Shown: positions 3,857 through 30,728 of the stretch, in pieces
How the letters are laid out: each line of letters begins with the position of its first letter
How positions within the stretch are numbered: position 1 is the stretch's first letter
Source of the DNA: Halorussus sp. MSC15.2
GTDB taxonomy: Archaea; Halobacteriota; Halobacteria; Halobacteriales; Haladaptataceae
Reading direction: 5' to 3'
Assembly: GCF_010747475.1 (NCBI RefSeq)
Contig: NZ_VSLZ01000001.1
Coordinates: 682,001-746,000, forward strand
DNA: 64,000 bases
Position numbers and translations under genes: made by a program
The notes under the pieces: generated by a model
What the model was told of the DNA's origin: nothing
Database searches by the model: none
The model's input: the letters and a program-made list of their open reading frames with translations, nothing else

Positions 3857-4844
3857 ATGGCTCGGGTCTCGGCCGGAGCGCGACTCCACTTCGGCTTCCA
3901 GAATCTCTCGTTGGCTCACGAGCGTCTCTACGGGTCGCTCGGCGTCGCGCTCGACTCCCCGCGCGTCGCCGTGACCGCCGACCCCGCGGAGACGGTTCGC
4001 TGCGACCACGAGACCGCCCGCGGACACGTCCGACGAGCGGTCGAACTGCTCGGCGTTCCGGGCGCCGACGTGACCGTCGAGCGAACGCTCCCCCGCCACG
4101 TCGGACTCGGGAGCGGGACGCAGTTGGCACTCGGGGTCCTCGCCGCGGTCGCACGCGCCTACGACCGCGACCCGCGGGTCCGCGAGCGCGCCCCGAAACT
4201 CGGCCGCGGCGGGCGGAGCGGCGTCGGAGTCGCCACCTTCGAGTCGGGCGGGTTCGTCTTCGACGCCGGGCATCCGACCGAGCGGTTCACGACGACCGGC
4301 CCCGCGCGGGGAGTGGTCGGTCCCGGAAGTCGTGGCCCGCCACGAGGTCCCCGACGACTGGCGGTTCGTCGTCGTCCTCCCGGACGCCGACCCCGGCCGG
4401 AGCGGCGACGACGAGGACGCGAGCATGCGGTCGGTCGTCGAACGCGCCGACCCGGCTATCGGCGACGAAATCGCCGGCGTCGTCACTCGCCGCGTCCTCC
4501 CGGCCGTCGCGGCGGGCGACGCCGAGGCGTTCGGCGCGGCGGTCGCGGAGGTCGGCCGACTCAACGGCGCGTGGTACGCCGACGAGCAGGGCGGCGTCTA
4601 TCGCCCGCCGGTCGGCGAACTCGTCTCGGAACTCGGCGACTCGGCGGCCGTCGCCGGCGCTGGCCAGTCGTCGTGGGGTCCCGCGGTGTACGCCGTGACC
4701 CGGGAGCGGTCGGCGGCCGCGGCCCGAGACGCGGCCCGCGAGGCGCTCTCCGCGGTCGGTGTCGGCGGCGAGGTGTCGGTCGCCGAACCCCGGAACCGGG
4801 GTGTCCGAATCGAGGCGTCCGATGGCGCAGTCCTCTCGGAGTAG
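3857..4844 (+). CDS. Beta-RFAP synthase-like GHMP-family enzyme (frameshift)
   Basis: Resembles beta-ribofuranosylaminobenzene 5'-phosphate synthase, which condenses PRPP with p-hydroxybenzoate or p-aminobenzoate in (methano)pterin biosynthesis. The N-terminus (ARLHFGFQNL), the GHMP motif PRHVGLGSGTQLAL and the glycine-rich GRGGRSGVGVATFESGGF are in the first frame. The remainder (EVPDDWRFVVVLPD to the stop at 4844) is in another frame. The shift falls at the run of four Gs near 4307-4312: dropping one G gives the continuous reading GEWSVPEVVARHEV and a 328-residue protein. The length (988 nt) is one base over a multiple of three. The window also holds mch (61401-62333), another C1-pterin gene, so the intact gene would make metabolic sense. 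Confidence 0.78.
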
Positions 4845-26934: not shown

Positions 26935-28746
26935 ATGAGACAAACTACGGGAGACGACGCTTCGGACTCGAACCGAAACGACCGCTTGTCGATGGACCGC
27001 CGCCGACTGCTACAGGCCGCTGGCGTCGGAATCGGTGGACTGTCGCTCGCCGGATTCGCCGGCGAAGTGGCGACCGCTCAGACCGACTGCGCCGACGGTC
27101 CCTTCGAGCGGACGTACACCGGCGCGACGGTGAACCTCGGACAGATTCGGTCCGAGCAGGCACGCGGGGAGACGCCCGGTTCGGTCGCCGCGTCGAGTCC
27201 GGGCGGCGACGAGGCCGCGACCGACCTCCGTCGGGCCGCCAGCGACGCAGAGGGACGACAACCGCCCCGGAAGGCCGCCCAAGAGTCGAACGTCGAGGAC
27301 CCCGGTCCGCTGGGCGTCAGGGCCGAGTACGACGGGGTGAACGCCGGCGAGACGCGGGGCGGCGTCCCCTCGGACTCGCAGGTCGCCGCGGGCGACGGGA
27401 AGGTCCTCCACGCCCTCAACCGGCAGGTCGCCATCTTCAACAAGCAGGCCGGGCGACGCGAACACCAGTTCCCGCTCGAACGGCTCTGGGAACCGGTCAT
27501 CACGGAACCCGAAGGCGGGTTCGTCTACGGCGCACCGTTCGTGTTCGACCCGCGGGCGCGCTACGACCGGGAGTCAGACCGATTCGTCGTGGCCGCGACA
27601 CAGTACGAACCCGGTCTGACGACCGACGGCGAGATTATCGACCGCGAGGAACTCGAAGAGGGCGAGTTGGAGGACGAACAGGTGAGTCGGCCACCCCGGG
27701 GCTGGTGGATGGTCGCGGTATCGGCCACCAGTAACCCGAACGGCGACTGGTACGTCTACCGAATCCCGCCGATTCGCAACGAGGGGCTGGTCGATTATCC
27801 GACGCTCGGACTCGACCGCGACGCCGTCTACCTCGCCCAGAACTTCTTCGGCGACGTGTTCGAGGTGACGATGGTCGCGCTGGACAAGGCCGCGATGTAC
27901 GCGGGCGAGGACGTGACCGGGAACCACTTCACCGGGATGAGCGACCCGAACGCCGACGGCCAGACCTTCACGGTGCAACCGGCGCTCCAACCGTCCTCGG
28001 GCGGGAGTTCGGGGACGTACTACCTCGTGAACAGCGACTTCCCCACGCCGAGTTCCGGAACGCTCACGCTCTGGGAACTGACCGACCCGGTCGGCGACCC
28101 GACGCTGGAGTGTTTCACCCTCGACGTGGACCCCTACAGCTATCCGCCCGCGGCCCGCCAGAAGGGCGGCGACGAGACGGACTACGTGGACACGCTCGGC
28201 ACGCGCCTGATGAACGCCGACTTCGACGACGGGTCGCTGTGGACCGCACACACCATCCAGTACGACTGGGACGGCGACGGGCGGGCGGTCGCGGCGATTC
28301 GGTGGTACGAAATCGACGTGGCCTCGCGGTCGGTCGTCCAGAGCGGCGTCTACGGCGAACCGGGCACCTCCTACTACATCCCGACGGTCGGGGCCGACGA
28401 CGGTACGGCGGTCATCGCGCACAACGTGAGCGGTCCCGACACCTACATTCAGTCGGTCGTCGCGGGCCGGACCGAGGACTTCCCGGCGGGGCAACTGGAG
28501 GACGCGCTGGTCGTCCAAGAGGGCGCGTCGAACTACGACTTCGGCGAGGGCTTCGGCACCGTGGAGAACCCCCTGCGGTGGGGCGACTACAACGGCGTCT
28601 CGGTGGACCCGCAGTCAGGCCGGTTCTGGACCGTCAGCCAGTACTCGCCCGAGACCGAGATTCCGTCGGAGGCCGAGGAACGCGACCCCTATAACACCCG
28701 CATCGCCGAGGTGAGCTTCGACGCCAGTTCGAACAGCGGTAACTGA
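26935..28746 (+). CDS. Tat-exported protein of a bacterial-like surface-propeller family
   Basis: A 603-residue exported protein. The Tat signal is at residues 20-50 (MDRRRLLQAAGVGIGGLSLA, ending GEVATAQTD). Residues 100-330 follow the pattern GVPSDSQVAAGDGKVLHALN, RQVAIFNKQAG, FDPRARYDRESDRFVVAAT, AVSATSNPNGDWYVYRI, YPTLGLDRDAVYLAQNFF. That order matches large bacterial extracellular proteins that read 'sample viewed, object moves in, date stamped' segments of unknown function, often propellers. No catalytic residues are identifiable. An alternative start at ATG 26992 would begin directly at the RR motif. The gene stands alone, with a T-tract downstream. Confidence 0.75.
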   Translation: MRQTTGDDASDSNRNDRLSMDRRRLLQAAGVGIGGLSLAGFAGEVATAQTDCADGPFERTYTGATVNLGQIRSEQARGETPGSVAASSPGGDEAATDLRRAASDAEGRQPPRKAAQESNVEDPGPLGVRAEYDGVNAGETRGGVPSDSQVAAGDGKVLHALNRQVAIFNKQAGRREHQFPLERLWEPVITEPEGGFVYGAPFVFDPRARYDRESDRFVVAATQYEPGLTTDGEIIDREELEEGELEDEQVSRPPRGWWMVAVSATSNPNGDWYVYRIPPIRNEGLVDYPTLGLDRDAVYLAQNFFGDVFEVTMVALDKAAMYAGEDVTGNHFTGMSDPNADGQTFTVQPALQPSSGGSSGTYYLVNSDFPTPSSGTLTLWELTDPVGDPTLECFTLDVDPYSYPPAARQKGGDETDYVDTLGTRLMNADFDDGSLWTAHTIQYDWDGDGRAVAAIRWYEIDVASRSVVQSGVYGEPGTSYYIPTVGADDGTAVIAHNVSGPDTYIQSVVAGRTEDFPAGQLEDALVVQEGASNYDFGEGFGTVENPLRWGDYNGVSVDPQSGRFWTVSQYSPETEIPSEAEERDPYNTRIAEVSFDASSNSGN

Positions 28747-29141: not shown

Positions 29142-29555
29142 CTATCCGAGTTTCTCGTCCAGAATCAGTCGCGTCTTCGTGTTCACTACTTCCTCCAGTT
29201 CGCGCGCCTTCGTGATGAGTTGGTTCACGCTCTGGGTGTCGGCCGCGTCCACGACCAGCACGATGTCCTCCTCGCCAGAGACCTGCCAGACGAAGTCCAC
29301 CTGCTCCCAGTCGGCCACGCGCTCGCCGAGGTCGGAGGTGTTGACGTCCACCGCCACGTCGAGTTCTATCATCGCCTTCACGTTGCCGGTCTGGGTAGCG
29401 ATGGTGAATCGCTCGATGACTCCCTCGTCGGTCATGCGCTCGACGCGATTGCGAACCGTTCCCTCGCTGGTCCCGACCTGCTCGGCGATTTCGGTGTACG
29501 GTTTTCGGGCGTCTCGACGTAAGATGCTCAAGATTTCGCGGTCCAGTTCGTCCAT
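29142..29555 (-). CDS. lrp: Lrp/AsnC-family transcriptional regulator
   Basis: A 137-residue full-length Lrp/AsnC regulator: HTH at residues 1-60 (MDELDREILSILRRDARKPY, EIAEQVGTSEGTVRNRVERM) and RAM effector domain from about 63 (IATQTGNVKAMIELDV, ELEEVVNTKTRLIL). Divergent from carA over a 102-base spacer containing a perfect palindrome, which suggests that it controls carA and itself. In other haloarchaea Lrp proteins respond to amino acids or glutamine; here that is inferred. Confidence 0.95.
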   Translation of the reverse strand: MDELDREILSILRRDARKPYTEIAEQVGTSEGTVRNRVERMTDEGVIERFTIATQTGNVKAMIELDVAVDVNTSDLGERVADWEQVDFVWQVSGEEDIVLVVDAADTQSVNQLITKARELEEVVNTKTRLILDEKLG

Positions 29556-29590
29556 CGAGATGCGTAGATAGACGGGGACCCCACTTGACG

Positions 29591-29607
29591 ATTACGAAAT
29601 TCGTAAT
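29591..29607. promoter_or_regulatory. Perfect inverted repeat, probable Lrp operator
   Basis: attacgaaattcgtaat has 8-bp arms (attacgaa/ttcgtaat) around one central A. It lies 36 bases upstream of the lrp ATG and about 19-35 bases before the carA TATA box. Half-sites ctacgaaa (29612-29619) and ttcgta/tcgtaat (29641-29660) recur nearby, as expected for cooperative Lrp binding. Confidence 0.7.
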
Positions 29608-29625
29608 CTCGCTACGAAAGCAAGG

Positions 29626-29631
29626 TTTATA
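29626..29631 (+). promoter_or_regulatory. TATA box of carA
   Basis: tttata is 27-32 bases before the ATG at 29658, the usual archaeal TATA-to-start distance for a leaderless mRNA. This favours 29658 over the in-frame GTG 29637 and ATG 29646. Confidence 0.6.
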
Positions 29632-29657
29632 CTCCCGTGTTTCGTATGAATCTCGTA

Positions 29658-30728
29658 ATGGTGGCCGCATACGTCGCACTGGAGGGTGGCAGTGTCGTGG
29701 AGGCACGCTGTCGCGCTCCGGGCACGTCCCACGGCGAACTGGTATTCACGACCGCGTACACGGGTTACGAGGAGAGTCTGACCGACCCCTCTTACGAGGA
29801 GCAGGTCCTGACGTTCTCGTACCCCCTCATCGGGAACTACGGCGTTCGTCCCGAGCGATTCGAGGACGAACGAGTTCACCCCCGTGCGGTCGTCGCGCGC
29901 GAACTCACCGACGACGTGGCCGATTGGCTCACCGAAGAGGGCGTCCCCGCGGTGGACAAACTCGACACGCGCGACCTCGTGGGCCAGATTCGGGAGGGCG
30001 GAGCGATGAAGTGCGGCATCTCGGCCGGACCCGACGCCTCGCCCGAGGCGGCCAAGGAGGCGCTGGCGGACTGTCCCGGCATGAGCGACCACACCGACAT
30101 CGGCGCGCAGGTCAGCGTCTCCCAGCGCGAGACCTTCGAGGGCGGGGACGGTCCCGACGTGGCGCTCGTGGACTGCGGCGCGAAGGGGAGCATCACCGAC
30201 TCGCTGCTCGACCGCGGCGCGACGGTCCACGTCCTGCCGTACGACGTCTCGCCGGGCGAAGTCGCCGACCTCGACCCCGACGTGCTGTTCGTCTCGAACG
30301 GACCGGGCGACCCCGCGAACTTCGAGACCGCCCAGTCGCTGGTCGAGGAGTTCGTCGGCGAGATTCCGCTCGCGGGCATCTGTCTCGGCCAGCAGATTGT
30401 CGCCCGCGCGCTCGGCGGCACCACCGAGAAGATGGACTTCGGCCACCGCGGCGTCAACCAACCGGTCCGTGACCTCCGGACCGACAGGGTCGTGATGACC
30501 ACCCAGAACCACGGCTACACCGTCGCCGAACCCGGCCCGAAGCTCGACGTGACGCAGGTCAACGTCAACGACGACACCGCCGAGGGACTAGAGAGCGACG
30601 ACCTGAACGTCATCACCCGCCAGTACCACCCCGAGGCCAACCCCGGTCCGCACGACAGCCTCGACTTCTTCGACGACGTGCTGGCGATGGCCGGCGACGA
30701 GCGTCGAACCCCCGTCGCCGCGGACTGA
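29658..30728 (+). CDS. carA: Carbamoyl-phosphate synthase small (glutaminase) subunit
   Basis: Releases ammonia from glutamine for carbamoyl phosphate synthesis (arginine and pyrimidine pathways), working with CarB, which is not in this window. The 356-residue protein has the CPSase_sm_chain domain (TAYTGYEESLTDPSYEEQVL, SYPLIGNYGV) and a class I glutamine amidotransferase domain with the nucleophile Cys in AGICLGQQI and the catalytic His/Glu in QYHPEANPGP. The start follows the leaderless-promoter argument and gives an N-terminus (MVAAYVALEGG) that suits the family. Confidence 0.95.
   Translation: MVAAYVALEGGSVVEARCRAPGTSHGELVFTTAYTGYEESLTDPSYEEQVLTFSYPLIGNYGVRPERFEDERVHPRAVVARELTDDVADWLTEEGVPAVDKLDTRDLVGQIREGGAMKCGISAGPDASPEAAKEALADCPGMSDHTDIGAQVSVSQRETFEGGDGPDVALVDCGAKGSITDSLLDRGATVHVLPYDVSPGEVADLDPDVLFVSNGPGDPANFETAQSLVEEFVGEIPLAGICLGQQIVARALGGTTEKMDFGHRGVNQPVRDLRTDRVVMTTQNHGYTVAEPGPKLDVTQVNVNDDTAEGLESDDLNVITRQYHPEANPGPHDSLDFFDDVLAMAGDERRTPVAAD

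Follow-up and report, generated by a model that had tools for sequence, protein, structure and literature searches.

A phased multi-site array as the predicted operator of a Trh3-type Lrp regulator at the lrp, carA and carB promoters of haloarchaea

The closest described counterpart of the locus studied here is the circuit of Trh3 (VNG1816G) in Halobacterium salinarum NRC-1, an Lrp-family regulator encoded beside carA and divergently from it, whose binding at trh3, carA and carB was reported from ChIP by Ashworth and colleagues (PMC4177876, accessible part of the article), and whose signal has been predicted to be arginine, lysine or glutamine (PMC4236453). Archaeal Lrp sites are imperfect inverted repeats of 13-17 bp with an AT-rich centre, occurring in clusters, and the dimers bound to them usually stand two or three helical turns apart, centre to centre, and can join and wrap the DNA (PMC2995911). 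BarR of Sulfolobus, also of the Lrp family, likewise has semi-palindromic sites evenly repeated in a divergent intergenic region common with its target, but that target is of the aminotransferase type and the site sequence is another (PMC6801745), while work on H. salinarum Lrp/LrpA1 (PMC2894021) and on H. volcanii HVO_A0307 (PMC6801745) concerns other loci. The lrp-carA/carB circuit as such is already known from H. salinarum Trh3, as the accessible part of PMC4177876 describes it. What we offer are refinements of that published circuit, without claiming priority for them: a phased three-site array common to carA/lrp and carB, and two natural experiments that link the array to this Lrp. In the accessible text of PMC4177876, figures aside, we found no mention of 0/+20/+51 phasing, of operator copying or of co-loss with lrp.

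The window, by which we mean the whole 64-kb stretch of DNA analysed, carries lrp on the minus strand (29142-29555), encoding a Lrp/AsnC-family regulator of 137 aa with an N-terminal AsnC-type HTH domain (PF13404, 64.8 bits) and a C-terminal RAM ligand domain (PF01037, 47.1 bits), both above cut-off. Its relatives in the PDB include LrpA (1i1g) and PH1519, it is 100% identical at the protein level to the Lrp of Halorussus aquaticus, and orthologues were found in 389 of the 391 haloarchaeal genomes sampled. By profile score the nearest named family is LysM (NF040947) of Saccharolobus (Sulfolobus) solfataricus, which is likewise a regulator of amino acid biosynthesis but has other target genes, and the window protein, at 116.5 bits, falls under the curated equivalog cut-off of 180 bits. 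Judged by gene order beside carA and by the published description, it is probably the orthologue of Halobacterium Trh3; eight further Lrp-like stretches occur in the same genome. As in the H. salinarum circuit, at least in what is accessible of its description (PMC4177876), lrp diverges from carA with a common promoter region, and conserved, related sites lie there and at a separate carB promoter. The two cases differ in genus (Halorussus-like here), in the two conserved signals reported for Trh3, and in kind of evidence, since ChIP binding and carA-carB co-expression have been published for H. salinarum (same part of PMC4177876), whereas the present circuit is predicted from sequence. Elsewhere in the window, on the plus strand at 26935-28746, a 603-aa protein with a twin-arginine-like N-terminus had no match in Pfam or NCBIfam.

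On the other side of the gap, carA occupies 29658-30728 on the plus strand, with its ATG at 29658, and encodes the small subunit of glutamine-dependent carbamoyl-phosphate synthase (PF00988, PF00117 and TIGR01368 all above cut-off); its transcript is probably leaderless. The two genes diverge around a gap of 102 bases, whose G+C content is 46% versus 66% in the window, and the original prediction had placed a perfect palindrome in it. This proved right, the repeat being one base longer on each side than described: site 0, at 29590-29608, is a perfect 19-bp palindrome, GATTACGAA-A-TTCGTAATC, consisting of the arms ATTACGAA (29591-29598) and TTCGTAAT (29600-29607) around the A at 29599 plus one more paired base at either end, and is a predicted Lrp-dimer operator. 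It abuts a TATA-like element at 29583-29588 (TCAAGT on the minus strand, ACTTGA on the plus strand), which, judged by its location some 30 nt away from where lrp starts, is probably part of the lrp promoter, and whose CTTR is conserved in 71-78 of 80 related loci.

Half-sites about 20 bp apart and overlapping the carA TATA box and start had also been predicted. Counting offsets from the first TACG (29593), there is indeed a half-site at +20 (CTACGAA, 29612-29618), beside the likely carA BRE, but it lies just upstream of the TATA box and not over it; that box (TTTATA, 29626-29631, plus strand) stands between the sites at +20 and +52. The next related element runs up to the carA start codon, lies 52 bp on and is an imperfect full site, not a half-site: TATGAATCTCGTA at 29645-29657, of the form TATG-AATCT-CGTA, which a search of the window for the palindrome recovered with three mismatches and which extends over the probable transcription start. 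Both the +20 and the +52 site of carA are imperfect in the window.

Palindromy by itself was rejected as evidence. Perfect inverted repeats with arms of at least 9 number six in the window (two of them overlapping) versus about 4.3 in shuffled windows, so that their mere presence in 64 kb says little, and the chance of such a repeat falling inside the 102-base intergenic region is 0.003. Across the 4.4-Mb genome no other copy of the palindrome was found with zero to two mismatches, and the strict core TWCGAANTTCGWA occurs only in the lrp-carA gap and in the carB promoter, with none for a reversed-pattern control. A degenerate two-site pattern gave, without mismatch, the window site and one further position (474964 on contig C3); with two mismatches allowed it gave 209 forward and 222 reverse hits genome-wide, and was discarded as too loose for naming more targets.

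Conservation was followed in 80 related lrp loci collected by protein similarity. In every one carA diverges from lrp, three of them (L047, L057 and L064) having 0.2-3 kb of inserted DNA between the genes. The original prediction had proposed looking for the palindrome in relatives that keep the lrp-carA pair, and there the full site 0 is kept in 80/80, as is TWCGAA at exactly +20. The TTA(T) of the carA TATA box, at +34 to +37, shows little or no variation among these loci, and a full TNCG-N5-CGNA is present at +51/+52 in 58 of them, the remaining 22 being one base short, as the window is too. A strict palindrome plus half-site pattern was found in 222 of 292 genomes, with no reversed control among the matches listed; it misses lineages such as Haloarcula, where the right arm reads TTCGAAAC. 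Sites at 0, +20 and +51/52 agree with the layout of multi-site archaeal Lrp operators (PMC2995911), and the reading of the region as such an operator is supported by the 80/80 conservation and the fixed spacing.

Neither the exact 0/+20/+51-52 phasing nor a second target, carB, was part of the original prediction. The carB copy of the strict core TWCGAANTTCGWA, roughly 120 kb away from the lrp-carA site, precedes the carB start by about 70 bp and lies within an array at 4480-4600 of locus L096 (591660-591780 of contig C1). When 70 carB promoters from the whole class were anchored on the conserved TTATTACGAT, 68 had the full TNCG-N5-CGNA at 0, 63 had it at +20 and 64 at +51; no other offset had more than 13 (reached at +58), against a background of 0.0009 per position across these upstream regions. 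The position of the TATA box within the array differs, being about +47 to +51 in carB and +33 to +38 in carA. The anchor TTATTACGAT itself shows no variation among the 70 haloarchaeal carB promoters, which is unusually strict for a promoter core.

Two natural experiments bear on the identity of the binding protein. The first is offered by relatives in Halorubrum/Haloparvum, where lrp and carA have come apart, by inserts or by lying on different contigs (G171), and where the palindrome is kept at both promoters wherever both sides are readable. Ten lrp-side copies have mean pairwise identities of 93.6% at site 0, 100% at the half-site and 93.7% at the +51 site (TGCGATSTTCGYAG), while the spacer drops to 57% identity at constant length, and the carA TATA box and start codon are absent; these copies are related and may share one duplication, so they do not count as ten independent events. 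An eleventh lrp-side copy, in locus L242 of another member of the Halorubrum group (G311), reads TGCGAATATCGTAGC and looks degraded, with no carA start within the stretch fetched; it is possible that decay of the array is under way there. A separate observation comes from a small-genome haloarchaeon (G021, L140:900-1135), in which a diverged lrp (60% identity) has a palindrome upstream, with TTCGAACTTCGAA lying roughly 150 bp beyond it; no carA was found in the 2 kb of sequence fetched there.

The second experiment is the loss of the regulator. Only two genomes in the sample lack lrp, G129 (a single contig) and G220, and both retain other Lrp paralogues. Neither has the palindrome or the half-site at carA, and neither has the array at carB, though this is a separate locus, so that the array has gone with the regulator at four of four promoters, in what is a small sample of two genomes. 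In G220 the core of the carB promoter, TTTCGCCGGGCTTATTACGATG, persists, and so does, at carA, a remnant resembling the third site (GTACGAATCCGGTAATG), as expected of a sequence that also serves the transcription start. This co-loss, together with the retention of the array at both separated promoters, supports this Lrp as the putative binder of the array. Along with ChIP in H. salinarum (accessible part of PMC4177876), the same observations favour the original proposal that the neighbouring Lrp regulates carA and its own gene.

Our reading is that the region is very probably a multi-site operator for the adjacent Trh3-type Lrp, through which lrp, carA and carB would be controlled. It could be argued that the conserved sequences are merely the core elements, namely BRE, TATA box and start region, of a pair of divergent promoters, since site 0 adjoins the TATA-like element of lrp, the half-site is next to the carA BRE and site +52 runs up to the carA start. 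We consider this highly improbable: the lrp-side copies retain the +51 site where the carA promoter and its TATA box are missing, G220, which lacks lrp, has lost sites 0 and +20 but kept its promoter cores, and the spacing recurs at unlinked carB with the TATA box elsewhere in the array, which promoter geometry alone does not explain. That a different regulator, either one of the other Lrp paralogues or a repressor of the arginine/pyrimidine kind, binds the array and that the neighbouring lrp is merely one of its targets is also improbable, if slightly less so. The genome does hold eight other Lrp-like stretches, and the Lrp proteins of H. salinarum have many bound promoters in common (PMC4236453), but both lrp-less genomes keep Lrp paralogues and have nevertheless lost the sites at carA and carB, the array stays with lrp after lrp has left carA, and ChIP of Trh3 itself has been published (PMC4177876, in its accessible part).

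Under the preferred reading of an operator for the adjacent Lrp, dimers would line up along one face of the DNA, on TWCG-N5-CGWA sites at 0, +20 and +51/52, the steps of 20 and 31-32 bp fitting two and three helical turns, and might join into a larger assembly in which some 65-70 bp of DNA is bent or perhaps wrapped. Site 0, abutting the lrp core promoter, would provide autoregulation; sites 0, +20 and +52 would frame the carA promoter with its BRE, TATA box and start, and the third carB site would sit on the carB TATA box, by which the two unlinked subunit genes of carbamoyl-phosphate synthetase could be held in step. Most probably, liganded Lrp would repress lrp, carA and carB under an abundant supply of the signalling amino acid (arginine, lysine or glutamine), and, with sites bracketing the carA promoter and covering the carB TATA box, blocked promoter assembly would be likeliest when all of them are filled. 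Repression seems the likelier direction of control. The same operator might instead allow Lrp to activate carA and carB from its BRE-adjacent sites, as Ptr2, LysM and Ss-LrpB are held to do from a site that precedes the BRE by a few bases (PMC2995911), but we regard this as rather unlikely, the site at +51/52, at the carA start and over the carB TATA box, having a position that appears suited to blocking.

It is also somewhat probable that the array behaves as a transferable operator module, with three dimer sites locked at 0/+20/+51-52 in three promoters whose TATA boxes are differently placed, and that it was duplicated in full as lrp and carA parted in the Halorubrum/Haloparvum lineage. If true, the class as a whole would share an Lrp operator whose defining trait is its geometry and which serves a single enzyme together with its own regulator. 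In archaea, Lrp sites tend to be degenerate and are difficult to predict, while this regulator appears to have very few strong targets and a sharp site definition. With natural deletions and duplications available across hundreds of genomes, the haloarchaeal circuit may offer a clean system for studying Lrp assemblies on phased sites at archaeal promoters, and also how unlinked subunit genes can be kept in balance without an operon.
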